Assembly (NCBI GenBank): GCA_024697645.1
Contig: JAILFH010000113.1
Span: 61,925-125,924 of the forward strand
Origin: Prevotella sp.
GTDB lineage: Bacteria; Bacteroidota; Bacteroidia; Bacteroidales; Bacteroidaceae
DNA: 64,000 nucleotides
Direction of reading: 5' to 3'
The position numbers and the translations under genes were made by a program. Shown here piece by piece: positions 3,516 to 60,955 of the stretch (its first letter is position 1; each line of letters opens with the position of its first letter). The notes under the pieces are model-generated. The model was given only the letters and a program-made list of their open reading frames with translations, was not told the origin of the DNA and searched no databases.

Positions 3516-4076
3516 TTACTCTTCAATACCTTCGCCAATTGTGAAGTTCTCGGGTTTCTTTCCCTTGTAGTCCTTGAAATAAAGTTTGATTTCCCGCATG
3601 TCCTCTTCCAGATTTCCTGTGGGCACGACCATCTTCGTGCACTCGATGAGTTTGCGCTCGTAGTCGAGTCCATAAAGAAGTATGGGAATATCTGCCTTCT
3701 GAGCAATAAAATAGAAGCCCTTCTTCCAGTCGGGATTGAGCGAGCGAGTGCCCTCAGGAGTGATGCAGAGATGGAACTCCTTACATTTACGGGCCTCTGC
3801 GGCGAGGTTGTCAGTCATGCTTGTCTTCTTGGTTCTGAAAACGGGGATTCCGCCCATTCGACGGAACATAGGTCCGAGGGGCCAGAAGAACCATTCCTTT
3901 TTCATCAGGAAATTGATTTTCATGCCCTCAGCACGCATATAGAGTTGTCCTAAAAGGAAATCCCAGTTGCTGGTATGCGGTGCCAGACAGATAATATATT
4001 TTTCAGGATGAGTGACAGTTACGTTTTTGACCCATCCCATTTGTTTATACAAAAGCCATTTACAAAATCTGCTCAT
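3516..4076 (-). CDS. 1-acyl-sn-glycerol-3-phosphate acyltransferase family (PlsC-like)
   Basis: APHTSNWDFLLG (HxxxxD motif) and ITPEGTRS. Confidence 0.85.
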   Translation of the reverse strand: MSRFCKWLLYKQMGWVKNVTVTHPEKYIICLAPHTSNWDFLLGQLYMRAEGMKINFLMKKEWFFWPLGPMFRRMGGIPVFRTKKTSMTDNLAAEARKCKEFHLCITPEGTRSLNPDWKKGFYFIAQKADIPILLYGLDYERKLIECTKMVVPTGNLEEDMREIKLYFKDYKGKKPENFTIGEGIEE

Positions 4077-4181
4077 TACGAGTATGAATTTTTCAATTAG
4101 TGTAACTAGTTTGTTCTGATTTTTAACGTGACCGAAACCTTTCGGTCACGTTCTTCAGATTCCTTGTGACCTTAAGTCACA

Positions 4182-11881: not shown

Positions 11882-12607
11882 ATGGAAGCCCAGAGAATAC
11901 TTGAATTCCTTCGTGGAATCACTGCTAATAACAACCGCCCTTGGTTCCTCGAGCACAAGGATGAATATGACGCTTGTCGCAAGAATTTCAATGAAGGTAT
12001 TGCCCGCGCCATTAATCGTTATGCGGAGTTTGACGATGAAATTGCACATTTGCAGGTGAAGGATTGTGTCTATAGATTCAATCGAGATACACGCTTTTCA
12101 CCTGACAAATCGCCTTATAAGCGTCATCTTGGCGCCTATATCTGTTCGAAAGGCAAAAAGTCACTTCGTGGCGGTTATTACATTCATCTCGAACCTGGAA
12201 ACTGTATGCTCGCAACGGGTAGTTATTGGCTTCCAACCAATATCCTCACTTCCTGTCGAAATGAAATCATGGGCAATATAGACCGATGGCTGGAGGCTGT
12301 GGAGAATCCGAAATTCAGAAAACTTTTCGGCAAACCCAATCAAGGAATATGGCCCGAGATGGAGAACGAAGATGCGAAAGGGAGCGAGAAGGGGTTCGGC
12401 CTCGTTTCGCTGAAGACTTGTCCTGCTGGTTTCCCCCGTGATTATGAGCATATCGAATATCTCCGAATGAAGGACTATTGCTGCTGGCGTAGGGTACCTG
12501 ATACGTTCTTCGAGGGAGATGATTGGCTTGAGGAATCTTCCAAGATTTTCATCGTAGCCAAACCGATGATGGACTTCATGAATGCCGTTATCGACGACTA
12601 CGAATAA
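11882..12607 (+). CDS. DUF2461 (TIGR02453) family protein
   Basis: FLRGITANNNRPWFLEHKDEYD, YRFNRDTRFSPDKSPYKRHLGA. Confidence 0.9.
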   Translation: MEAQRILEFLRGITANNNRPWFLEHKDEYDACRKNFNEGIARAINRYAEFDDEIAHLQVKDCVYRFNRDTRFSPDKSPYKRHLGAYICSKGKKSLRGGYYIHLEPGNCMLATGSYWLPTNILTSCRNEIMGNIDRWLEAVENPKFRKLFGKPNQGIWPEMENEDAKGSEKGFGLVSLKTCPAGFPRDYEHIEYLRMKDYCCWRRVPDTFFEGDDWLEESSKIFIVAKPMMDFMNAVIDDYE

Positions 12608-12840
12608 GCAGCGAAAAGATTACTTCTCAAATAATTGAATGGTACGAATAAGAGGAGAATATATTTCTTTTTAAATAATCGACGACGATGAATAAGTAGA
12701 GAATGAATTTTTTCTCAAATAGTCAACGAAGACGAGTATACAAAGGACAATTTTCTTCCTTAATAATAAGTGGCTACGAGTAAGTTGGGAATATCTTCCT
12801 TTTTAAAAGAGTAGGGGATAAATACTTCTTTTTCTCAGAG
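12591..12840. repeat. degenerate tandem repeat, exact 44-bp period, 5 copies plus a partial sixth; first copy spans the stop codon of the DUF2461 gene
   Basis: Copies start at 12591, 12635, 12679, 12723 and 12767, sharing ...ACGAATAAG...TTCTttttAAATAA. Confidence 0.8.
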
Positions 12841-12914: not shown

Positions 12915-12974
12915 TTTAGTCTCGATTTGACGGCAGAAATTACACAATTTTGCCATAGTTTGTATAAAGCATGT

Positions 12975-13175
12975 CTTTAGACTATACAGAGCAATGCTTT
13001 TGACCTTAGAGAGCATGCCTTTATACCTATATAAAGACGTGCTCTGTATGGTAGAGAGATGGTCTTTCTATGGTCAAAAGGATAACTCTTTATGGTAGAA
13101 AGGACTGCTCTGTATAGTCAAAAAGATGACTTTGTATGTTCTAAATGGTTTCTTCGCTTATTAGAAAAGATTCTT
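12975..13175. repeat. 22-bp degenerate tandem repeat array, locus 1 of 3
   Basis: Unit starts 12975, 12997, 13019, 13042, 13064, 13086, 13108, 13130, 13152; consensus CTTTnTAtnnTnnAAAGnnnnn. Confidence 0.85.
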
Positions 13176-22125: not shown

Positions 22126-23637
22126 ATGGCACAAAATAACGGTAACACTTCTAATAATAGGGGACATCGCACATCACCGATAGATCCTGCGTATGCTCAT
22201 CTGCAACCTCAGGCCCTCGATATCGAACGTGTGGTGTTGGGTGCTCTGATGATTGACAAGGATGCTTTTTCGATTGTGGCAGAGATTGTCCGCCCCGAAA
22301 CATTCTATGAGCCGCGTAATCAGAAAATCTATAAGGCAATTCAGACGCTGAATATGAGCGAAAAGCCTGTGGACTTCATGACGGTCATAGAGGAACTGAA
22401 GCATCAGGGAGACCTTGATGACGTGGGAGGACCTAACTATATCATGGAGTTGACGCAGCATGTGGCTTCGTCGGCCCATATAGAATATCACGCCCATATT
22501 ATTCATCAGAAATTCCTGGCTCGACAACTGATTTCCTTCACCGGCAGAATCCAGGAAATGGCTTATGACGAGACGCTTGACCCAGATGTGCTGATGCAGG
22601 AGGCGGAAGGTCAACTCTTTGAGATTTCGCAGAAGAATATGAAGAGCGATTTCACGCAGATTGATCCCGTCATCAGGCAGGCAACCGACATTCTGAAGAT
22701 TGCAGCCCAGAACGAGGGAGGCATGACCGGTATTCCAACTGGATATTCGAAACTCGACGAGATGACCAGTGGTTGGCAGGACAGTGATCTGGTGATTATT
22801 GCAGGTCGTCCGGCTATGGGTAAGACTTCGTTTGCCTTGTCGCTTGCTAAGAATATTGCTGTTGACTATCGTAAGCCAATAGCATTGTTCTCGCTTGAAA
22901 TGAACAATGTGCAGTTGGCCCAGCGACTCATCTCAAACGTCTGTGAGATTCCTGGACAGAAGATTCTGAGTGGTCAGTTGTCTGATGATGAATGGAGTCG
23001 TTTCGACCGAAATATCAACAAGTTGTATGGCTCACCTATTTTTATTGATGATACACCAGGCCTCTCTGTTTTCGAGTTGCGTACAAAGGCTCGCCGACTG
23101 GTTAGGGAGAAGGGCGTGAAGATTATCATGATTGACTATCTGCAGTTGATGAATGCCAATGGTATGCGCTTTGGTAACCGTCAGGAAGAGGTGTCAACTA
23201 TCTCGCGTTCACTGAAGGGATTGGCCAAGGAGTTGAATATTCCAATCTTGGCATTGTCGCAGTTGAATCGTGGTGTGGAAGGCCGAGAAGGTCTTGAGGG
23301 TAAGCGTCCGCAGTTGAGTGATTTGCGTGAATCTGGAGCCATTGAGCAGGATGCAGATATGGTGCTCTTCGTGCATAGACCAGAATATTATCGTATCTTC
23401 CAGGACGAGCATGGTAATGATCTTCACGGCATTGCCCAGATTCTGATAGCCAAGCACCGTAAGGGTGGTACGGGTGATGTGAACCTGCGATTCCGCGGAG
23501 AGTTCACTCGTTTTGAAGACCCAAGCGATCAGCCACTGCCTCTGATTACGCCAACAGGTGGTGAGATTCTGGGCAGCAAGATGAACGACGATGATCCCTT
23601 TGGCGCTGCACCACCTATCACAGACGCAGGGTTTTAA
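22126..23637 (+). CDS. dnaB: replicative DNA helicase
   Basis: LDIERVVLGALMIDKDAF, IIAGRPAMGKTSFALSLAKNIA, IIMIDYLQLM, SQLNRGVEGR. Confidence 0.97.
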   Translation: MAQNNGNTSNNRGHRTSPIDPAYAHLQPQALDIERVVLGALMIDKDAFSIVAEIVRPETFYEPRNQKIYKAIQTLNMSEKPVDFMTVIEELKHQGDLDDVGGPNYIMELTQHVASSAHIEYHAHIIHQKFLARQLISFTGRIQEMAYDETLDPDVLMQEAEGQLFEISQKNMKSDFTQIDPVIRQATDILKIAAQNEGGMTGIPTGYSKLDEMTSGWQDSDLVIIAGRPAMGKTSFALSLAKNIAVDYRKPIALFSLEMNNVQLAQRLISNVCEIPGQKILSGQLSDDEWSRFDRNINKLYGSPIFIDDTPGLSVFELRTKARRLVREKGVKIIMIDYLQLMNANGMRFGNRQEEVSTISRSLKGLAKELNIPILALSQLNRGVEGREGLEGKRPQLSDLRESGAIEQDADMVLFVHRPEYYRIFQDEHGNDLHGIAQILIAKHRKGGTGDVNLRFRGEFTRFEDPSDQPLPLITPTGGEILGSKMNDDDPFGAAPPITDAGF

Positions 23638-36458: not shown

Positions 36459-38024
36459 ATGAGCAAACAAACAGAGAAAATCAAGGAGCTGATAGCCAAG
36501 CGCGAGAAGGCTCGTCTGGGTGGTGGCGAGAAGGCCATCGACAAGCAGCACCAGCGTGGAAAATATACAGCTCGTGAGCGTATTGAGATGTTAGTTGATG
36601 AAGGTTCGTTCGAAGAGTACGACATGTTCAAACTGCATCGCTGCCACAACTTTGGCATGGAGAAGAAACAGTTCCTCGGTGATGGTGTAGTAGTTGGTTC
36701 GGCTACCATTGGTGGCCGTCTGGTCTATGTCTCCGCACAGGATTTCACCGTCAATGGTGGTTCGCTTTCTGAGACCATGTCGCAGAAAATCTGTAAGGTG
36801 ATGGATATGGCCATGCAGAACGGTGCACCGATGATCTGCATGAACGACTCAGGTGGTGCACGCATCCAGGAGGGCATCTGCTCGCTGGCTGGCTACGGAG
36901 AGATCTTCGAGCGCAACATTCTGGCCTCGGGTGTCATCCCCCAGATTTCGGCCATCATGGGTCCGTGTGCAGGTGGTGCTGTCTATAGCCCCGCACTGAC
37001 CGACTTCATCCTGATGATGGAGAACACCAGTTACATGTTCCTCACCGGTCCTGCCGTCGTGAAGACAGTCACGGGTGAGAATGTCGATGCTGAGAGTCTG
37101 GGTGGAGCCAGTGTCCACGCTTCCAAGAGTGGTGTCACTTCGTTTACCGCCAAGACCGAGGAAGAGGCAATGGCCATGATTAAGACCCTGCTGAGTTATC
37201 TCCCTTCGAACAATATGGAGGAGGCTCCGCGCATTGAGTGCACAGACCCCATCGACCGCAAGGAAGACTTGCTCAACGAGATCATCCCTGACGATCCCAA
37301 CAAGGCTTACGACATGTATAAGGTCATCACAGCCCTTGTCGACAATGGCGAGTTCTTCGAGGTTCAGCCCAAGTTTGCCAAGAACATCATCGTAGGCTTT
37401 GCCCGCTTCAATGGCCAGAGCGTGGGTGTTGTAGCCAATCAGCCTGCTGCCTATGCAGGTGTGCTCGACACCAATGCCTCTCGCAAGGGGGCCCGCTTTG
37501 TACGCTTCTGCGATGCTTTCAATATTCCCATCGTGTCTCTGGTCGATGTACCAGGATTCCTTCCCGGAACAGGTCAGGAGTACAACGCAGTCATCCTGCA
37601 TGGTGCCCAACTCCTCTATGCCTATGGCGAGGCCACAGTTCCCAAGATCACCATCACCCTGCGCAAGTCCTATGGTGGCAGCCACATCGTGATGGGTTGC
37701 AAGCAGTTGCGTGCTGACCTGAACTTCGCATGGCCCTCGAGTGAGATTGCCGTGATGGGAGCCAGTGGTGCTGTTGCCGTGCTTTGTGCCAAGGATGTCA
37801 AGGCCAAGAAGGAGGCAGGTGAGGACGTACATGCATTCCTTGCTGAGAAGGAGGAAGAGTACAGCGACCTCTTTGCCAATCCCTATCAGGCAGCCCAGTA
37901 TGGCTACATCGATGATGTGATTGAGCCTCGCAACACTCGTTTCCGCATCTGTCGTGGACTGGCTCAGTTGGCCTGCAAGAAGCAGTCGCTGCCCGCCAAG
38001 AAGCATGGTTGCATGCCGATGTAA
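36459..38024 (+). CDS. biotin-dependent acyl-CoA carboxylase, carboxyltransferase subunit (methylmalonyl/propionyl-CoA type)
   Basis: GKYTARERIEMLVDEGSFEE, DSGGARIQEGICSLAGYGEIF, GPCAGGAVYSPALTDFI. Confidence 0.94.
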   Translation: MSKQTEKIKELIAKREKARLGGGEKAIDKQHQRGKYTARERIEMLVDEGSFEEYDMFKLHRCHNFGMEKKQFLGDGVVVGSATIGGRLVYVSAQDFTVNGGSLSETMSQKICKVMDMAMQNGAPMICMNDSGGARIQEGICSLAGYGEIFERNILASGVIPQISAIMGPCAGGAVYSPALTDFILMMENTSYMFLTGPAVVKTVTGENVDAESLGGASVHASKSGVTSFTAKTEEEAMAMIKTLLSYLPSNNMEEAPRIECTDPIDRKEDLLNEIIPDDPNKAYDMYKVITALVDNGEFFEVQPKFAKNIIVGFARFNGQSVGVVANQPAAYAGVLDTNASRKGARFVRFCDAFNIPIVSLVDVPGFLPGTGQEYNAVILHGAQLLYAYGEATVPKITITLRKSYGGSHIVMGCKQLRADLNFAWPSSEIAVMGASGAVAVLCAKDVKAKKEAGEDVHAFLAEKEEEYSDLFANPYQAAQYGYIDDVIEPRNTRFRICRGLAQLACKKQSLPAKKHGCMPM

Positions 38025-38052
38025 TTTTGTCTGATAAAAACAGTTGAATGTT

Positions 38053-38217
38053 ATGACGACCGACAAGAACATTTATGCTGCCATTGCATTGGCACTTCAC
38101 GAGTTTAAGGGCAACAACGTGCACGACAAGGAGCCTGGATTCATCACGATTCAGCCCCGCCACACGTTGTGGAATGCCAAGTTTCAAGTAATGACACTCA
38201 AACCTCAAAAGAGATGA
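38053..38217 (+). CDS. 54-aa small protein between carboxylase beta and biotin carrier (below the ORF-track cutoff)
   Basis: MTTDKNIYAAIALALHEFKGNNVHDKEPGFITIQPRHTLWNAKFQVMTLKPQKR*; stop overlaps the next start as ATGA. Confidence 0.75.
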   Translation: MTTDKNIYAAIALALHEFKGNNVHDKEPGFITIQPRHTLWNAKFQVMTLKPQKR

Positions 38218-38636
38218 AAGAATACAAATATACCATCGACGGAAAAGAATATGTTGTAGCCATTGGCGAAATCACCGACAACGTGGCTCAGGTGACGGTA
38301 AATGGTGAGGAGTTCCAGGTGGAGATGGAGCCTGAGAAGGAACCCGAGAAGAAGAAGGTTGTCCTCGGCCAGCCCGCTGAGAATACTGAGAGCGAGGCCA
38401 CACCTGCTGCCAATGTCAATGTGAACAATGCCGTGAAGGCTCCGCTGCCTGGTGTCATCACCGACATCAAGGTGAGCGTGGGCGACAAGGTGAAGAAGGG
38501 CGACGTAGTTGTTGTGCTCGAGGCCATGAAGATGGCAAACAACCTTGAGGCAGAGGCTGATGGCACCGTGACTGCCGTCTGCGTGAAGATGGGAGAGAAC
38601 GTCATGGAAGACGCTCCCCTCGTGGTGATTGAATAG
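38214..38636 (+). CDS. biotin/lipoyl-binding carrier subunit
   Basis: MKEYKYTIDGKEYVVAIGEI; C-terminal biotinyl motif VLEAMKMANNLEAEADGTV; ATG overlaps the previous stop. Confidence 0.93.
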   Translation: MKEYKYTIDGKEYVVAIGEITDNVAQVTVNGEEFQVEMEPEKEPEKKKVVLGQPAENTESEATPAANVNVNNAVKAPLPGVITDIKVSVGDKVKKGDVVVVLEAMKMANNLEAEADGTVTAVCVKMGENVMEDAPLVVIE

Positions 38637-38674
38637 AACTTGCTTTCAAAAATATTGAAAAAAGTCAAAACACC

Positions 38675-38740
38675 GAAGGGTGAAAAGGTAAAAATCTATA
38701 AAAAAAGATAGGTTTCAGCCTTTTCGCCCTTTGCTGATTT
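38675..38740 (+). terminator. stem-loop AAGGGTGAAAAGG...CCTTTTCGCCCTTT
   Basis: 12-13-bp imperfect stem between the carrier and glycogen synthase genes. Confidence 0.4.
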
Positions 38741-38761
38741 TTATTTTTCAATTTTTTTTAT

Positions 38762-38769
38762 TACCTTTG
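38762..38769 (+). promoter_or_regulatory. -7 box TACCTTTG for the glycogen synthase-like gene
   Basis: TAnnTTTG consensus. Confidence 0.6.
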
Positions 38770-38779
38770 CGTTGCAAAA

Positions 38780-39598
38780 ATGAGAATTATGGCTAAGAAA
38801 GTATTGTTCATCAATCAGGAGATCACTCCGTATGTACCCGAAACAGAAATGGCGTTAATGGGCAAACTGCTCCCCAACAAGATTCAGGAGAGTGGTTACG
38901 AAATTCGTACATTCATGCCCAAATGGGGATCAATTAATGAACGTAGGGGGCAGTTGCATGAAGTGCAGCGCCTCTCTGGCATGAATCTCATCATCGACGA
39001 CACCGATCATCCTATCGTCATCAAGGTTGCATCGATTCCTGGTACACGCATCCAGGTCTATTTCATCGACAATGAAGACTACTTCACAAAGCGTCAGATG
39101 ACTGTCGACGAGATGGGTGAGGAGTATCCCGACAATGGAGAGCGTGCCATCTTCTTTGCACGTGGTGTACTGGAGACCGTGAAGAAGTTGCGCTGGGCAC
39201 CTGACGTCATTCACTGTCAGGGCTGGATGGCGGCTGTGGTTCCCCTCTACATCAAGACTGCCTACAAGGATGAGCCCTGGTTCGCCAATACAAAGGTCAT
39301 CACCTCGCTCTTCCATGAGCAGCCGAAGGGGTCTCTCGGTGACAATTTCAAGCGCTGCATAGAGTTCCGCGATGCAAAGGCTGAGTTGCTCAGCGACTAC
39401 AAGGAGAATTTCGACTTCCTGGAACTCGGCAAACTGGCCATCGACTACAGTGATGGAGTCGTTCAGGCCAGCGAGGATGTGAACAAGAAACTCACGGCAT
39501 ACGCAGTCGACAAGAAACTGCCTGTCCTCAACTATCCCGGAGAGGACTTCGGCGAGGCCTATCTTGAGTTCTACAAACAAATTTGTCCTGAGGAATAG
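38780..39598 (+). CDS. glycogen/starch synthase, short Bacteroidetes form (GT5 N-terminal-like domain)
   Basis: KVLFINQEITPYVPETEMALMGKLLP, FMPKWGSINERRGQLHEV, PDVIHCQGWMAAVVPLYIK. Confidence 0.88.
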   Translation: MRIMAKKVLFINQEITPYVPETEMALMGKLLPNKIQESGYEIRTFMPKWGSINERRGQLHEVQRLSGMNLIIDDTDHPIVIKVASIPGTRIQVYFIDNEDYFTKRQMTVDEMGEEYPDNGERAIFFARGVLETVKKLRWAPDVIHCQGWMAAVVPLYIKTAYKDEPWFANTKVITSLFHEQPKGSLGDNFKRCIEFRDAKAELLSDYKENFDFLELGKLAIDYSDGVVQASEDVNKKLTAYAVDKKLPVLNYPGEDFGEAYLEFYKQICPEE

Positions 39599-39650
39599 CA
39601 TTTCCTTGGGACTACTCTTTTTCCTACTAAAGTTTTTTCAGCAACGTAAG

Positions 39651-41063
39651 ATGAAATTCAAATATCTTCTTTCTGCAGTTTTTACTGTTGCTATGGTGTC
39701 TGCATGCGACGACACAACAAACGACATTGGTACTTCCTTGACACACGATATGGACAACCTGGACGTCACTACCGACACGTTCCAGGTATCCTCCCGTTCT
39801 ATCATCGCTGATTCAGTCTATGCCCGCACCACTGTGGGCTATCTGGGAAAGATTCGCGACCCGGAGACTGGCGGCTACATCACTGGTAGTTTCATGACCC
39901 AGTTCCATGTGCTCGATGACTACGAGAACACATTCCCCAAGGCCGACAGCATCACAAGCAGGACTGACGATGGCTCCATCGTGGCCGACTCCTGTGAACT
40001 GCGCCTGTTCTACACAAGTTTCTATGGCGACTCTCTGGCTCCGATGAAACTCAGAGTTGAGGAACTGGCTACTCCCGTGCTTGAGAACCGACTCTACTAT
40101 TCCAATTTCAATCCGACCACGAGCGGCTATCTCAGAGAGGACGGCATCAACAAGGAGATTGCCTATTCGCTCATCGACATGAGTGTCTCGGAATCCTCAC
40201 GTAGCGCTGATGGCTACACCAACAACATCCGAATCCCCCTCAACGACTCCTATACAGCAAAGGATGGCACCGTCTATAGCAACTACGGTACCTATCTCAT
40301 GCAATCCTACTACAAGAATCCTGAGGTGTTTGGCAATTCGCTGCGCTTTGCCAAGGAAGTGGTTCCTGGATTCAACTTCGAGTATACTGGTGGACTGGGC
40401 GCTATGGCCAATATCGTCAATAGCAAACTCATTGTCTATTTCCACTACCAGGGCACCGACTCCATCGAATCAGGTATTGTTGAGTTCGGTGGCACCGAGG
40501 AAGTGCTGCAGACAACAGCCATTGAGAACGACCGCCAGACCATTCTCGACCTGGCAGCCGACAACACCTGCACCTATCTGAAGACTCCTGCAGGCATCTT
40601 CACTGAGATGACGATTCCCGTGGACAACATCCTGAGTGGACACGACAACGACACCATCAATACGGCAAAGATTGTGATTCCCAGAATCAACAACACCGTA
40701 GAGAGCGACTACTCGCTGGGCACTCCAGCCAATCTGCTCATGATTCCGAAGGACAGCCTATACTCGTTCTTTGAGAACAGCCGCACGGTTGACAATCGCA
40801 CATCCTATCTGGCCACGAACACCTATCTGGGTTCGAACAACACCTACCAGTTCGCCAACATCTCCAACCTGATAGCAGCCATGAATGGCAATCGCTCGTC
40901 AGAGAACTGGAACAAGGTTGTGCTCATTCCAGTGACGGTTTCCACGATCTCTACTTCCATTGTCTCCCACACCCTGTCGCTCACCAGTACCAAACTCGTA
41001 GGAGGCTCTGCGAATCCCCATGATCCAATCAAGATTAGCGTCATCTATAGCAAATTCAAGTAG
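39651..41063 (+). CDS. DUF4270 family lipoprotein
   Basis: MKFKYLLSAVFTVAMVSACDDTTNDIGTSL lipobox; start at internal ATG 39651. Confidence 0.88.
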   Translation: MKFKYLLSAVFTVAMVSACDDTTNDIGTSLTHDMDNLDVTTDTFQVSSRSIIADSVYARTTVGYLGKIRDPETGGYITGSFMTQFHVLDDYENTFPKADSITSRTDDGSIVADSCELRLFYTSFYGDSLAPMKLRVEELATPVLENRLYYSNFNPTTSGYLREDGINKEIAYSLIDMSVSESSRSADGYTNNIRIPLNDSYTAKDGTVYSNYGTYLMQSYYKNPEVFGNSLRFAKEVVPGFNFEYTGGLGAMANIVNSKLIVYFHYQGTDSIESGIVEFGGTEEVLQTTAIENDRQTILDLAADNTCTYLKTPAGIFTEMTIPVDNILSGHDNDTINTAKIVIPRINNTVESDYSLGTPANLLMIPKDSLYSFFENSRTVDNRTSYLATNTYLGSNNTYQFANISNLIAAMNGNRSSENWNKVVLIPVTVSTISTSIVSHTLSLTSTKLVGGSANPHDPIKISVIYSKFK

Positions 41064-41228
41064 TCTGAGCGCTGGAGTAGGGAAGTCCTGCACCTGAGCG
41101 TCAGAGGCTGTCTTTTGAACATTCCTGAGCCCGACTCAATGCATGAGGACAACTATCGCCACGTCCACAGGAGACTTGCTTCTCTCACCTCTCCCTCAGA
41201 ACATCAGTTTTAATATCGATAGATTTCT

Positions 41229-41360
41229 ATGGCAGACAATTTCCTAGAGCGTCACTACGAGGAATATGAAGCCCGCAAGGAAGCGTGGCTCAAGCGCAAG
41301 AAGCACTTCCCAAAGAAGGTCAGCCGAACCCTCGAGAAACCTGACGACGAAGCCCTGTAG
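41229..41360 (+). CDS. 43-aa basic small protein (below the ORF-track cutoff)
   Basis: MADNFLERHYEEYEARKEAWLKRKKHFPKKVSRTLEKPDDEAL*; followed by a terminator at 41385-41415. Confidence 0.65.
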   Translation: MADNFLERHYEEYEARKEAWLKRKKHFPKKVSRTLEKPDDEAL

Positions 41361-41384
41361 AATCTTTCCTTCCACCCATATAGT

Positions 41385-41415
41385 CATGCCCTCCCTCCAG
41401 AGGGCATTTTTTGAG
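41385..41415 (+). terminator. stem-loop ATGCCCTC/GAGGGCAT + T6
   Basis: Perfect stem with T run. Confidence 0.7.
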
Positions 41416-41454
41416 TCTGTATGGTTGAATTCTTTTCTATGATATAAAGCACAT

Positions 41455-41660
41455 CTTTCTACCTTACAAAGCAATGCTTTATGCCCCTATAAAGATGGTC
41501 TTTATACCCCTATAAAGCATATCTTTCTATAGTTAAAAGGATACCTTTCTATAGTCAAAAGGACACCTTTCTACAGTCAAAAGGACACCTTTCTACAGTC
41601 AAAAGCATATCTTTCTATGGTCAAAAGGATTGCTCTTTATACTCCAGAGTATGTCTTAAC
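41455..41660. repeat. 22-bp degenerate tandem repeat array, locus 2 of 3
   Basis: Unit starts 41455, 41477, 41500, 41523, 41545, 41567, 41589, 41611, 41633; best units CTTTCTATAGTCAAAAGGACAC. Confidence 0.9.
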
Positions 41661-41826
41661 ACACTAAAAAGAATTGCTCTCTTTGGTGAAGGAGTAAGCC
41701 TTATAAAAAAACATAAATTTAATTTGTAAAGAAAATGGGCAGTTGGTGCTGAATCTGGCATTGACTGCCTGTTTTTTTATTAGACAAAAAATCGGGAAAA
41801 TGTTTTGCGGTGTCGTGGGAAAAGGG

Positions 41827-41834
41827 TAAATTTG
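41827..41834 (+). promoter_or_regulatory. -7 box TAAATTTG upstream of the four-helix-bundle gene
   Basis: TAnnTTTG consensus. Confidence 0.55.
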
Positions 41835-41890
41835 CGGAGATATAATAAGGTGGTTTGCACGCAATCGTCTAATACGTTGACCAAAACAAC

Positions 41891-42592
41891 ATGACCATGG
41901 AACAACTCAATGCAAAAGATGAGAAAAATCCGCTGGAGGCAGCAGCGATGATCGATACAGTGCTTCGGCAGGAGAAGGACTGGAATACGCTTTATTTCTA
42001 TCAGAAGACGGTGGTACTCTATCAGATGACCTATGTGTTCTGCCAGCGGTTTCTACCAAAGTATGGCGACCGAACTGTCGACCAGATGGTGCAGGCTGCC
42101 CGTTCGGGTAAGCAGAACATCGTTGAAGGAATGGCCGATGGTGTGACTTCGATGGAACTGGAACTGAAACTGCTTAACGTGGCACGGGCCTCTCTGAAGG
42201 AACTACGGGAGGACTATGAGGACTATCTCTTGTCGCGCAGGCTGAGCCGATGGGTGAAGGGCCATCCTCGCTATAAAGCCTTGCTGGACTTCTGTCGTAA
42301 TCGGAATCAACTTGAGGACTATGAGCCGTTCTTCATGCGATGGAGCGATGAGGAGATGGCAAACACGGCTCTCTCGCTCTGCCATTTCACTGACAAGATG
42401 ATGGTGAAGTATGAGAAGTATCTGGAGCAGGACTTTGTAGAGAATGGGGGGATAAGAGAGCGGATGACTGCTGCCCGTCTGGGCTATCGAAACATCCAGA
42501 AGGCTACCATTGAAGCAAAGGATCGGGAGATTGCCGCCCTGAAAGCCGAGATTGCGAGGCTCAAGGACCGCATCAGGGAACTGGGTGGGTAG
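41891..42592 (+). CDS. four-helix-bundle (S23/IVP/Avd-like) protein with C-terminal coiled coil ('four helix bundle suffix' type)
   Basis: YQKTVVLYQMTYVFCQRFLPKYGDRTVDQMVQAARSGKQNIVEGMADG (xxxSGxxNIxEG motif) and C-terminal AKDREIAALKAEIARLKDRIREL. Confidence 0.85.
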   Translation: MTMEQLNAKDEKNPLEAAAMIDTVLRQEKDWNTLYFYQKTVVLYQMTYVFCQRFLPKYGDRTVDQMVQAARSGKQNIVEGMADGVTSMELELKLLNVARASLKELREDYEDYLLSRRLSRWVKGHPRYKALLDFCRNRNQLEDYEPFFMRWSDEEMANTALSLCHFTDKMMVKYEKYLEQDFVENGGIRERMTAARLGYRNIQKATIEAKDREIAALKAEIARLKDRIRELGG

Positions 42593-42605
42593 TGGCTGGG
42601 GGTAA

Positions 42606-42736
42606 GTAGTTGGACTAGTATCCCTAGTAATCCTAGTTTTCCTAGTTAGGCTAGTTCTCCTAGCATCCCTAGTTCTCCTAGTTTTCCTAGTTAGGCTAGT
42701 TCTCCTAGTCAGCCTAGTTTCCCTAGTAATCCTAGC
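42606..42736. repeat. 9-bp tandem array: 14 CTAG tetramers at exact 9-bp spacing (CTAGnnnnn)
   Basis: CTAG at 42615, 42624, 42633, 42642, 42651, 42660, 42669, 42678, 42687, 42696, 42705, 42714, 42723, 42732; degenerate GTAG in phase at 42606. Confidence 0.97.
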
Positions 42737-42769
42737 AAAAAAAGCCAGCCCCTAAAAACTCTTTCTTCA

Positions 42770-43591
42770 CTACTCCTTGAACATTTTGTTCTCCTGGGCA
42801 GGGATGGGCATGAAGCCTTCGGTGAGGAGTTGTTTTTCCTGCATGACTGTTTCGAGTTGGGCAAAGAAGGAGGTGCGGCCCAGTTGCTCGAGTCGTTCAG
42901 CCATCAGACTCTCGTCGTAGTTGAGGCGGGTGAGGGTTGCTGAGAGTTGAATGAGTTGCTGCTCGCCGATAGTTCCACGATGGTGCTGATAGCCGATGTA
43001 TTCAGTCTGCCTGAGAATCTCGCAAATGTTTGGGTCGGGCTCATCAAGGGCTTCGACCTTCTGCTGAATCTGCTGGCGGATGTTCTGGTCGTGCACTGCG
43101 ATGAGGTCGGCATAGAGCGAGACAATCCGTGCTGCATAGTCTTCAGAAGTAATGGATGTGGTAACTATCGGATTTCCAATGAGTTCGACCGAAAGTTTAG
43201 GATATTGTCTCTGGAGGTTCTCCTGTTCAATCTGGCTCGAAGCAATCAGGAGCAGAGTAGTCGGGAGAGACTTCGGGTCGTTCAGTCCAGCGTGGCTGAA
43301 GGGAAGGTCGCGATGAGGGCTGTTCCAAGGCTGGAGCGTGCTCATCGGAGTGATGATGCAGGGAATGAGCAACTGGCGTGCACGTCGGAGATAAGATGCA
43401 ATGGCATGATTGTCGTAGCCAAAGAGATGGATGAGGTCAGGATGCTCGTCAGTGATCGAGATGTTGTCAACCTTCATCAGTTGACTGCGGAGCATCCCAA
43501 CGAGTTCCTGGCAGATGACAGTCTCTTTCGGGCAGTTGTCATTGCCTTCAGAGGGTATAAGCCCTTTTGCGACGTGCAGTTGAATTCTCAT
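42770..43591 (-). CDS. hypothetical glycosyltransferase-like protein, 273 aa
   Basis: ORF adjacent to a GT2 gene on the same strand; family not firmly recognised. Confidence 0.6.
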   Translation of the reverse strand: MRIQLHVAKGLIPSEGNDNCPKETVICQELVGMLRSQLMKVDNISITDEHPDLIHLFGYDNHAIASYLRRARQLLIPCIITPMSTLQPWNSPHRDLPFSHAGLNDPKSLPTTLLLIASSQIEQENLQRQYPKLSVELIGNPIVTTSITSEDYAARIVSLYADLIAVHDQNIRQQIQQKVEALDEPDPNICEILRQTEYIGYQHHRGTIGEQQLIQLSATLTRLNYDESLMAERLEQLGRTSFFAQLETVMQEKQLLTEGFMPIPAQENKMFKE

Positions 43592-43612
43592 AAGCCATTT
43601 AGTTTTAGGGAA

Positions 43613-44941
43613 TCAGACCTTGTGCGACGTGAAGTCAGTCTTGTTGGCTCGCCAATAGCGAATGTGATGGAACATCTTATGCCAGATGCCACTGAGTTCG
43701 TAGGGGTAGATCTTCCAGGAGGGAATGTCCTCGTCGAATGCCCTGATGACCTTCTTCGCAAAAGTGGTGCGGAGAATGATGGTGAGCAGGAGCGAGAAGA
43801 CGGCTACACCCAGAAGAATCCAGCGCTGGGTGAGACCCGCAAAGACGCCAGTGGCAACGGCAGCGATGAAGGTCAGATGGAGTGCCAGTTCATCAATGAA
43901 AGGCAGCAGGCGATGACGGAAACTCCGACGGAGGAGTTTGCGTGTGTGAGTGTAGAAGATGTGCATGTTGCGCCAGGCATGCGGGGTAGGGGCATCGTAG
44001 ATGACCCAGGCATTGCGCTCTGCTGCCACAGCAGTCTGCCTGCGCTTAGCATACTTGTTGATGAGGAAATCGTATTCACCACGAATGGCCTGCAGATTGC
44101 CTCGATAGCCGTCACCAGCAATGAACTCGCTCTTGCGGAAGGCAATGTTGCCCTCGATGGAACGATAGGCTGTGCGGAGAGCCTCACGCATGGTGTAGCA
44201 AGCCTGTTGGAGTCGCTCAAAGCGATAGTAAGGTTTGGCCTCGTTGTCGAAGTTGTTGTAGCCAATCACGAGGTTGTGGTCGTCGTCACAGTAACTGGCA
44301 ATAGTCGCGAGCCACTGGGGACCACTGGGAGTACAGAATGCATCGACCAGCACAATCCACTCGTTGTGGGCAGCCTTCACACCCAGCGTGATGGCCAGTT
44401 TCTTCTTGCTCATGTAGCGCGAGGAATCAGGAACGTAGGTGGCGTAGAGGCGGCTGTTGGAAGAGAAACTGTTGATGACGTCCTCAGTGTCGCTGTCGCC
44501 TTTCTCGGCTACTACCACTACCTCGAAGTTGTCGTATTCCTGATTGAGAAACTCGGGCAGGTGTTGACGGAGCATCGGCGCCTGCTTGTGTTGAGCGGTG
44601 ATGAGCAGGGTCAGGGCAGGCGTGTTCTTATTCTCAGATGTCTCATTCTTCTCAGATGTTGTGGCTACTGCAGTGCTTACTTTCTCAGCAACTACAGGCT
44701 CTATGTCGGCTTGTGCAGCCTCATTGTCATTGGCTGTTTCGTTGCCTTCAGTTGCTGCTTCGTTATCGTCAGTTGCTGCTTGGGCATCACTAATGGTTGC
44801 CTCTTCGTCGCCTACAGCAAAGTCTTCTTCATCGGCTGCAGGCTGTGGAAATTTCCTGAAGAACGGACTAAGAAAAGGACTTAGTGCGGCCAGTAGCAAT
44901 ACCGCCGCACCAAGTATGAGTGTTATCAGGTCGAATGTCAT
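43613..44941 (-). CDS. family 2 glycosyltransferase, membrane-associated
   Basis: TLLITAQHKQAPMLRQHLPEFLNQEYDNFEVVVVAEKGDSDTEDVI, KLAITLGVKAAHNEWIVLVDAFC; N- and C-terminal TM segments. Confidence 0.88.
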   Translation of the reverse strand: MTFDLITLILGAAVLLLAALSPFLSPFFRKFPQPAADEEDFAVGDEEATISDAQAATDDNEAATEGNETANDNEAAQADIEPVVAEKVSTAVATTSEKNETSENKNTPALTLLITAQHKQAPMLRQHLPEFLNQEYDNFEVVVVAEKGDSDTEDVINSFSSNSRLYATYVPDSSRYMSKKKLAITLGVKAAHNEWIVLVDAFCTPSGPQWLATIASYCDDDHNLVIGYNNFDNEAKPYYRFERLQQACYTMREALRTAYRSIEGNIAFRKSEFIAGDGYRGNLQAIRGEYDFLINKYAKRRQTAVAAERNAWVIYDAPTPHAWRNMHIFYTHTRKLLRRSFRHRLLPFIDELALHLTFIAAVATGVFAGLTQRWILLGVAVFSLLLTIILRTTFAKKVIRAFDEDIPSWKIYPYELSGIWHKMFHHIRYWRANKTDFTSHKV

Positions 44942-44964
44942 TTTTTTATCTGTAAACTGCTTTT

Positions 44965-46128
44965 TTATATCATTTCTTCTGCAGTATAACCGACAGGTAG
45001 TCTGCGGCAGTTATACTGACTTGCCATGATTTCGCCATAGGCTCCAGCCGACCGCATGACCAAGAGATCACCCCGATGGCAGCGGTTCAGGTCGAAAGCC
45101 TTCACGAAGACATCACTCGACTCACAGATGGGGCCAACCACATCGTAGGTCTCCTCTGGCTCATCGCTCGAGATGTTTTCAATGCGATGGAAGGCATTGT
45201 AGAGTGCTGGACGAATGAGGTCGGTCATGCCTGCATCGACAATGGCAAACTGCTTGGCAGCACCCTGCTTCACATAGAGCACACGGGTGACAAGCGTTCC
45301 ACACTGGGCCACTACGGCTCTACCAAGTTCGAAATGCAGTTGCTGACCCGGGCGGAGTTTCAACTTCTTGGCATAGGTGTCGAAATAGTCCTTGAAGTCG
45401 GGAATCGGCATGTGGTTCGGGTGGTCGTAACTGATGCCAAGTCCACCGCCTACATTGATGTGCTCCAGTTTGACGTGCTTGCGTTCGAGTTGTATCTGCA
45501 GGTCGTTGATTCGGTTGCAGAGTGATTCAAAATCACCCATATCGAGAATCTGCGAGCCGATGTGGAAGTGGAGTCCAACAAACTTCACATTGTTCATCGT
45601 CTCAGAGATGCTGATCACCTCATCCATATCGCGCATGGCAATGCCGAACTTGTTCTCAGCCAGACCAGTGGTGATGTTGGCGTGAGTATGAGCGCCCACA
45701 TTCGGGTTTATACGGAGGCATACACGCGCTACCTTGCCCTTGGCTGCAGCCAACTCGTTGATGACCTCCAGTTCGGGAATGCTCTCCACATTGAAGCAGA
45801 AGATGTCGGCATCGAGACCGAGATTGATTTCCCAGTCGCTCTTGCCCACACCTGCATAGACAATCTTTGAGGCAGGGAATCCAGCATTGAGTGCTGCTCG
45901 GATCTCGCCACCACTGACGCAGTCGGCACCCAGTCCAGCCTGACTGATGATGCCCAGAACCTTCGGGTTCGCATTGGCCTTGACGGCATAGTGCACGTGA
46001 AAGCAATTGTGCTTTTTCGTTTCCTGATTGATGGCGTCAAGCGTCTGACGCAGAAGGGCTGTGTCGTAGTAGTAGAACGGAGTCTCTCGCTGAGAGAACT
46101 TCTCTACAGGGAATGTTCCTTTAATCAT
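44965..46128 (-). CDS. lysA: diaminopimelate decarboxylase
   Basis: TPFYYYDTALLRQTLDAI, HYAVKANANPKVL, GLHFHIGSQI, CESSDVF. Confidence 0.95.
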   Translation of the reverse strand: MIKGTFPVEKFSQRETPFYYYDTALLRQTLDAINQETKKHNCFHVHYAVKANANPKVLGIISQAGLGADCVSGGEIRAALNAGFPASKIVYAGVGKSDWEINLGLDADIFCFNVESIPELEVINELAAAKGKVARVCLRINPNVGAHTHANITTGLAENKFGIAMRDMDEVISISETMNNVKFVGLHFHIGSQILDMGDFESLCNRINDLQIQLERKHVKLEHINVGGGLGISYDHPNHMPIPDFKDYFDTYAKKLKLRPGQQLHFELGRAVVAQCGTLVTRVLYVKQGAAKQFAIVDAGMTDLIRPALYNAFHRIENISSDEPEETYDVVGPICESSDVFVKAFDLNRCHRGDLLVMRSAGAYGEIMASQYNCRRLPVGYTAEEMI

Positions 46129-47441
46129 GAGAACAACTTTTCGCTCAGACTTTGCAATGCACGCTTCTTGTCGCTACCCTTGATGAGGAAAGAGATGTTG
46201 TAGTTGGAACCACCATAGGAGATCATGCGCACGGGGATGTTCTGCATGGCCTCGAGCACGAGAGTCTCGAAACCAAGGTTGCTCCAGTCGAGGTCGCCCA
46301 CAACGCAGATGATGGCCATATCGCTATCAACGGTGACAGTACCGTATTTCTTCAGTTCATTGACGATGTCGGTCAGATGGGCCTGATTGTCGATGCTCAT
46401 CGAGACGCCAACCTCAGAGGTGGCAATCATGTCGATAGGAGTCTGATAGGATTCGAAGATCTCGAACACCTTGCGCAGGAAACCTGTTGCCAGAAGCATG
46501 CGCGACGACTTGATCTTAATAGCGGTGATATTGTCCTTGGCAGCAACGGCCTTGATCTTGCCGCGCATGATGACGTTGTCGATGATTGTTCCGTCGGCCT
46601 GAGGATTCATCGTGTTCTTCAGTCTGACGGGAATGCCTGCAAACTTAGCGGGCTGTACGCAGGTGGGGTGGAGGATCTTGGCACCGAAGTAAGCAAGTTC
46701 GGCAGCCTCTTCGAAGTTCAGTTGGCGCACGGCCTCAGTCTTCTCAACCACACGAGGATCATTGTTGTGCATTCCATCGATGTCGGTCCAGATCTGAATC
46801 TCATCAGCGGGAAGTGCTGCACCCACAAGTGAGGCAGTATAGTCGCTGCCACCACGCTGCAGATTGTCGACCTCACCATAGGCATTGCGGCAGATGAAGC
46901 CCTGCGTAACGTAGATCTGATAGCCTTCGTTCTTCGCCATGATAGCAGCCAGTTTCTCCTTGATGTACTGTGGGTCAGGCTCACCGTTCTTGTCGGTGCG
47001 CATGAAGTCGAGAGCCGACAGCAGAACAGCCTTGATGCCCTGTTCCTGCAGGTAGTTCACCATCATGTTTGTCGACATCACTTCGCCCTGGGCCACGATA
47101 CTCTTCTCCTCAAACGAAGTGAAGATGTCCTTTGTGAACGAGCGGAGATAGTCGAACTCCTGACGCAGGAAGTCGCGAGTGAGTTGCTTATAGTGGTCGG
47201 TGCTGTAGAGTTCTTCCACGTGCACCATGTATTTCTTTTCGAGTGTGTTGATGATTTCGTTAGCCCCCTCGGGGTTCTTTTTGTAGAGATAGTCGGAAAT
47301 TTCTACAAGCGAATTGGTTGTACCGCTCATAGCAGAAAGTACGACAAATGTCTGTTCGCCCGACTCCGTGACAAGAGAGGCGACATTCTTGATGCGTTCA
47401 GGGGAACCCACTGATGTTCCGCCAAATTTCATTACTTTCAT
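46125..47441 (-). CDS. lysC: aspartate kinase
   Basis: MKVMKFGGTSVGSPERIKNVASLV, RGGSDYTASLVGAAL; overlaps lysA by 4 bp. Confidence 0.95.
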   Translation of the reverse strand: MKVMKFGGTSVGSPERIKNVASLVTESGEQTFVVLSAMSGTTNSLVEISDYLYKKNPEGANEIINTLEKKYMVHVEELYSTDHYKQLTRDFLRQEFDYLRSFTKDIFTSFEEKSIVAQGEVMSTNMMVNYLQEQGIKAVLLSALDFMRTDKNGEPDPQYIKEKLAAIMAKNEGYQIYVTQGFICRNAYGEVDNLQRGGSDYTASLVGAALPADEIQIWTDIDGMHNNDPRVVEKTEAVRQLNFEEAAELAYFGAKILHPTCVQPAKFAGIPVRLKNTMNPQADGTIIDNVIMRGKIKAVAAKDNITAIKIKSSRMLLATGFLRKVFEIFESYQTPIDMIATSEVGVSMSIDNQAHLTDIVNELKKYGTVTVDSDMAIICVVGDLDWSNLGFETLVLEAMQNIPVRMISYGGSNYNISFLIKGSDKKRALQSLSEKLFS

Positions 47442-48429: not shown

Positions 48430-48605
48430 TGATTCGTATTTGTGATTTGCGACTCGTAGTTTGTGTTTGCGCTTTGTCAATTTGGCTTGATAAATATGTG
48501 CTTTGTTTTGTGCTTTGTTTTGTGCTTTGTTTTGCGATTTGTTTATGCGGTTTGTTTTGCTATTTAGTTTGCGATTTGTAATTTGTAATTTGTTATTTGC
48601 TATTT
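48430..48605. repeat. degenerate T/G-rich tandem array with 12-bp core period (GTGCTTTGTTTT), decaying into 7-bp (TAATTTG) units
   Basis: Core units at 48498, 48510, 48522, 48534. Confidence 0.75.
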
Positions 48606-48645
48606 GTAAAAAGTCCCTCCGAAAGAGTGATTCCTTCGAAGGGAC
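48606..48645 (-). terminator. secA terminator stem GTCCCTTCGAA...TTCGGAGGGAC + TTTTT
   Basis: 10/11-bp stem with T run on the minus strand. Confidence 0.7.
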
Positions 48646-60822: not shown

Positions 60823-60834
60823 GTTGTAGCCCCT

Positions 60835-60955
60835 CCGCATTCCTTCTTCCGCATTCCTTCACTCCGCATTCCCGTCCTTCGCATTCCACGTCCTCCGCAT
60901 TCCTCGTCCTCCGCATACTCGTTGTCCGCATTCTCCGTCCTCCGCATACTCTTTC
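60835..60955. repeat. 14-16-bp tandem array of CCGCATTCC-type units, 8 copies
   Basis: Unit starts 60835, 60849, 60864, 60879, 60895, 60911, 60926, 60942. Confidence 0.92.

Follow-up and report, generated by a model that had tools for sequence, protein, structure and literature searches.

A helix-bundle gene is followed by a phased CTAG array

The stretch of DNA that was analysed, referred to as the window, comprises 64,000 nt of Prevotella sp. (GCA_024697645.1, contig JAILFH010000113.1, positions 61,925-125,924 of the forward strand). The locus of interest contains the following features, with coordinates counted within the window.

about 41434-41682: 22-bp dyad array upstream of the gene (pattern matched 16 times across the window, 0.54 expected)
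41804-41834, + strand: putative Bacteroidota-type promoter, read from the sequence, with TTTG at 41804-41807, a 19 bp gap and TAAATTTG at 41827-41834
41891-42592, + strand: four helix bundle suffix protein gene, an ORF of 233 aa with family matches and a fold model
41999-42208, + strand: TIGR02436 / 23S_rRNA_IVP-type bundle domain (residues 37-106; family match)
42347-42493, + strand: TIGR04258 four helix bundle suffix domain (residues 153-201), closing with the conserved motif GGIRERMxxARxxYR
42500-42583, + strand: C-terminal coiled coil (residues 204-231), within a long helix (188-232)
42615-42735, + strand: cognate 9-bp phased array with 14 CTAG cores, unit CTAGTNNNC

The window protein matched TIGR04258 ('4helix_suffix') with 68.4 bits (cut-off 40) and TIGR02436 with 30.7 bits (cut-off 24), the bundle preceding the suffix domain. 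A first-pass annotation had described the gene product as a four-helix bundle related in fold to Avd and IVP and ending in a coiled coil; the TIGR02436 match and a structure model agree with the fold, and the coiled coil is present. The TAAATTTG box at 41827 was also correctly placed, with TTTG 19 bp upstream. TTTG and a -7 box form the Bacteroidota promoter consensus.

Rfam gave no match in positions 38000-47000, and the neighbours of the gene are protein-coding, with hsd genes absent among them. As had been reported, no recognised transposase or reverse transcriptase lies near the gene, and family and domain searches gave no transposase match for the window protein.

The 9-bp array indeed lies immediately downstream, as previously described, and begins 22 bp 3' of the stop codon. 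Its 14 CTAG cores are spaced exactly 9 bp apart, the base following the core is T in 12 of 13 units, and the spacer columns are variable. Since CTAG is invariant and the spacers vary, the array is not merely the result of recent slippage of a single unit. Adjoining units resemble each other more than far-apart units, and multi-unit duplications (period 45) could also be seen. The pattern was matched 12 times against 0.13 expected, a number not reached in any of 100 shuffles. In the window's own genome, CTAG at period 9 was matched 65 times; among 12 array clusters examined, nine were intergenic and three lay inside long ORFs, where the 9-bp period preserves the reading frame. The 9-bp CTAG array is the true partner of the helix-bundle gene, and both gene and array are real.

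The upstream 22-bp repeat is dispersed and independent of the gene

The first-pass annotation had placed the gene between two different phased arrays, the upstream one at 41455-41660. Both arrays are real and the extent of the upstream one is slightly larger (see the list), but the 22-bp array was ruled out as a partner of the gene. Its motif recurs at 12954-13145 in the window and was found in 235 forward matches genome-wide (at most 2 mismatches) on dozens of contigs, compared to 45 for the backward control, and it occurs independently of the gene. The 22-bp array is therefore a dispersed repeat that stands upstream of the gene by happenstance. Moreover, homologues with arrays on both sides normally have one unit common to the two, which does not fit a paired organisation of two different arrays.

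A repeat alike in kind is the BrickBuilt MITE of Porphyromonas gingivalis, an intergenic dispersed minisatellite with 23-nt repeats (PMC4596501). The likeness concerns their dispersed intergenic position in Bacteroidota and does not come from sequence comparison; BrickBuilt has its 23-nt repeats within a MITE with terminal inverted repeats, and no protein partner is described there (PMC4596501).

Further tandem arrays in the window were found at 60832-60951 (15-16 bp, CCTCCGCATTCCCGT), 48495-48609 (12 bp, TTTGTTTTGCGA) and 12590-12729 (44-bp period).

Phased arrays adjoin TIGR04258 genes in relatives

TIGR04258 genes were surveyed in 201 genomes of the same family. The domain has a patchy distribution, being found in 66 of the 201 genomes at no more than five places per genome, and 92 loci could be oriented. 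By a strict test, a 9- or 10-bp phased array adjoins the gene in 65 of these, versus 2/29 TIGR02436 genes without the suffix and 2/183 distant background windows from these loci. With a k-mer test of higher sensitivity, arrays were identified at 71/92 suffix loci and at 4/28 same-fold genes without suffix. Thus, the combination of array and gene that the first-pass annotation had found to be without explanation in the annotation recurs in homologues. No clear adjacent array was present in 21-27 of the 92 loci, for example at L038, L051 and L056 in a men operon. Arrays, mostly CTAG or CTATAG, were present at 36 of the 52 closer homologues of the window protein. Outside the family, arrays were shorter and less consistent (4/30 in the strict test, 11/25 in the sensitive test).

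Arrays on both sides of the gene were present in 25 loci, with the same period in all 25 and a median unit similarity of 0.90, compared to 0.41 between loci. Inverted arrays at both ends could be ruled out as the rule, as 18 of 20 clear cases were direct. The 3' array follows close behind the stop codon in most loci, and in L204 the -7 box of the promoter is immediately followed by the 5' array. Many of the proteins have a C-terminal tail (of NGx, NPS or QTG repeats, for example) that is encoded by array sequence reaching into the gene; other TIGR04258 proteins, including that of the window, terminate in a coiled coil.

The genome of the window contains a second TIGR04258 gene (L023, G000:C96; suffix domain at 4024-4170, - strand), flanked by hsdS and a 1117-aa ORF resembling hsdR. 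Its array of 355 bp has period 9 and a different unit, GAgnaATCc, and is largely translated as protein tail. No array of this second unit, TCNGANTAA, was found in the window. Three homologues of the window protein (L228, L237 and L258) have an in-frame stop within the matched stretch and are possibly decayed copies.

Type I restriction genes were found next to part of the loci: about 13 of the 92 (7 confirmed) have hsdS or hsdM as the immediate upstream neighbour on the same strand (L023, L040, L041, L043, L055, L058, L060, L061, L083, L084, L093, L109 and L115). In three of these (L060, L083 and L084) the ends touch, with the hsd gene within a few bases of the suffix gene. This would agree with the gene being an accessory of a type I restriction-modification or other defence locus and the arrays a side effect. 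Such a role is nevertheless very improbable, as the neighbours at most loci, including that of the window, are unrelated, and PADLOC gave only a weak match (E 0.024), to the coiled coil.

The array unit follows the protein clade

Two observations went beyond the first-pass annotation: each protein clade has a unit of its own, and arrays of the matching unit also occur scattered over the host genome. The units found in the different clades include CTAG, CCTAGG (period 10), GTCNGAC, TTAAAGACC, CTATAG, TCCGGA and others; near the window's clade these are CTAG and TCTAGA. When unit class was mapped on the protein tree (54 loci, 14 classes), 16 changes were required, versus a minimum of 33 and a mean of 37.5 in 100 shuffles. 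The palindromicity of the units was 0.59, compared to 0.40 for column-shuffled versions.

Genome-wide scans were in line with this. GTCNGAC at period 9 was present in all five genomes with the matching clade, with 17-302 matches each, and in 5/196 others with at most 6 matches, so that 659 of the 674 matches fall in the five clade genomes. CCTAGG at period 10 was found in 9/11 clade genomes versus 15/190 others, and CTAG at period 9 in 20/23 clade genomes, compared to 30/178 others. Fisher tests gave 1e-7 for GTCNGAC, 5e-8 for CCTAGG and 3e-11 for CTAG, values that overstate independence as genomes within a genus are related; the contrast in match counts between clade genomes and others is large. 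Arrays without a detected gene occurred in 12/135 genomes for CTAG at period 9, a number to be read with the fact that many of the surveyed genomes are incomplete metagenome assemblies. The type of unit follows the protein clade, and matching arrays are found almost exclusively where that clade is present.

Other tandem repeats do occur in AT-rich intergenic regions, which could point to chance or low-complexity host sequence as the source of the arrays. This explanation is hardly credible, being excluded by the shuffle tests, by the genes without suffix and by the backward-pattern control, which was near zero in the genome scans.

Gene and arrays are gained and lost together

Between G171 and G199 a site could be compared that is ∼97% identical on both sides. 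G199 contains the promoter, the gene, a translated array and a second array, and G171 an unrelated small ORF in their place. At a PRPP synthetase locus, two genomes of one genus have the promoter, the gene and one or more arrays and two relatives lack them, with a divergence too high to place the exact edge. In comparisons of close relatives, gene and arrays were thus either both there or both missing. For the window's own site the downstream neighbour was used as a marker: those of its orthologues that were read lack the gene, but the best ones of the same genus are only about 28-36% identical and thus too diverged. Neither a target-site duplication nor a precise insertion edge could be identified. 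A simple insertion was ruled out for G183 versus G169, where the gene lies within an 8-kb replaced region.

The number of units also changes between relatives: G171 and G199 share an orthologous array, with 11 units in the former and 20 in the latter. Together with the similarity of neighbouring units and the arrays without a detected gene in some genomes, this would be expected if the arrays came first, as products of slippage and recombination that arose in particular genomes, with the gene cassette captured at such sites or tolerating them and the protein not recognising the unit. We regard this as decidedly unlikely, as it leaves unexplained why unit type tracks the protein tree, why matching arrays rarely occur in genomes without the matching clade and why same-fold genes without the suffix lack arrays.

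A phage origin was rejected, as there was no match in phages or viral contigs. The plasmid collection gave one match, on a 568-kb record of Prevotella nigrescens. Relatives 56-69% identical to the window protein were located on MAG contigs labelled Kiritimatiellae or Victivallales (L223-L227, L230, L251 and L261); among the homologues on Kiritimatiellae-labelled contigs, which are 63-69% identical, three have CTAG arrays on both sides. Unless the bins are mixed, the Kiritimatiellae-labelled homologues suggest transfer between phyla.

Fold of the protein and comparison with known systems

The AlphaFold2 model of the window protein has a mean pLDDT of 85.6 and shows a long added helix (188-232). 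The best structural match was 2gsc (Xcc0516, Z 15.7), followed by BT_0352 (Z 13.6); 2rld was also matched. Avd structures (4dwl and 8ub7) gave Z 11.2-11.4, the value of 11.4 including Avd in a DGR ribonucleoprotein. A Z near 11 alone is weak for helical bundles, and the fold call is backed by the TIGR02436 sequence match. As modelled, the window protein has an Avd/IVP-type helix-bundle fold.

Its bundle is shared with Avd of diversity-generating retroelements. Unlike in these, no reverse transcriptase lies beside the gene, the protein has an extra suffix helix and coiled coil, and phased arrays take the place of template/variable repeats. Identity as a DGR was ruled out, since the sole RVT_1 match in the window's genome (92% complete) lies on another contig (C104). 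With 23S rRNA intervening-sequence / TIGR02436 proteins the window protein shares the family of its N-terminal half, but it additionally has TIGR04258, and same-fold genes without the suffix are rarely near arrays (2/29). An IVP inserted in a 23S rRNA gene was ruled out, as there is no rRNA at the locus.

REPtrons are described in the literature as a single RAYT (TnpA-REP) gene with short palindromic REP repeats that co-evolve with the protein and are dispersed in the genome, mostly in intergenic regions (PMC8266576, PMC2817692, PMC3733652). In the same way, cognate repeats adjoin the TIGR04258 gene and are dispersed genome-wide. Unlike the 20-40 bp palindromes of REP/RAYT systems, however, the units are 9-10 bp long, clade-specific and arranged in phased arrays, and the TIGR04258 protein has no HUH transposase and no recognised catalytic residues. 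No conserved His was found among the invariant columns of the TIGR04258 alignment, and H-hydrophobic-H occurs in only 3/92 proteins; identity as an HUH transposase was thus ruled out for want of a conserved HxH motif. As the defining HUH-transposase feature is missing, the element is not a member of REP/RAYT. Protein family, repeat architecture and probable mechanism set it apart from its nearest known counterpart. In the open-access literature searched, no mention of TIGR04258 or 'four helix bundle suffix' was found, although the curator of the NCBI model may have noted repeats, and nothing relevant on a repeat-protein link or 9-mer arrays in Prevotella.

Proposed recognition of the unit by the protein

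With moderate confidence, the locus is interpreted as a copy of a small element in which a TIGR04258 helix-bundle gene is accompanied by its cognate phased array, whose units are very short and for the most part palindromic, and the protein recognises its own unit, REP/RAYT-like but without the HUH transposase. A link to nucleic acids is indicated by the fold shared with Avd in the DGR ribonucleoprotein and by a member (L287) with a DNA-binding zinc ribbon. The protein would most likely recognise the core of the unit sequence-specifically, as an oligomer that reads regularly spaced sites. Because the units are palindromic and regularly spaced, the bound form is probably duplex DNA. Arrays flanking the gene, which relatives often have in the 5' untranslated region and directly behind the stop codon, would allow autoregulation, and those of the same unit elsewhere in the genome would either serve as additional binding sites or represent non-autonomous descendants of the element. 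That the protein, which has no recognised catalytic site, might also take part in array gain leads to a more tentative possibility, on the doubtful side: a self-spreading cognate protein-repeat element, of a new class, whose helix-bundle protein, neither transposase nor reverse transcriptase, would read a clade-specific short palindrome at near-helical spacing and cause arrays of that unit to be gained, kept or dispersed in the genome.

The main rival is an action on RNA, in which the protein would bind transcripts of arrays in UTRs or paired array strands and control stability or translation, the scattered arrays being regulated UTRs. The structural match to Avd, which is RNA-associated, in the DGR ribonucleoprotein is consistent with this, as are the 5' array of L204 right behind the -7 box, the 3' arrays mostly close to the stop codon and the two opposed arrays behind the gene of L079, which could pair. 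On the other hand, a target on duplex DNA would be expected to consist of short palindromes at near-helical spacing, a form that many of the units have, and one member from another family (L287:1330-2085, - strand) is a suffix protein fused to a topoisomerase-type C4 DNA-binding zinc ribbon (PF01396). An action on RNA is therefore considered unlikely.

Many bacterial genomes contain dispersed short repeats of unknown maker, and TIGR04258, a curated family without known function, predicts the repeat of a genome clade by clade. If the protein binds its unit, the family would constitute a large natural set of protein-DNA specificity pairs, offer an explanation, open to testing, of where the dispersed phased repeats of Bacteroidota come from, and give Avd/IVP relatives a first role outside retroelements and rRNA.

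Tails like that of L287 were recognised by eye in L288, L291, L292 and L297. At L079 (G199:C2, around 22246-22520), the arrays at the gene end and beyond are in opposite orientation (ATGGGAATN, then CCCATNNAN) and, judged from their sequences, may pair into a long hairpin.
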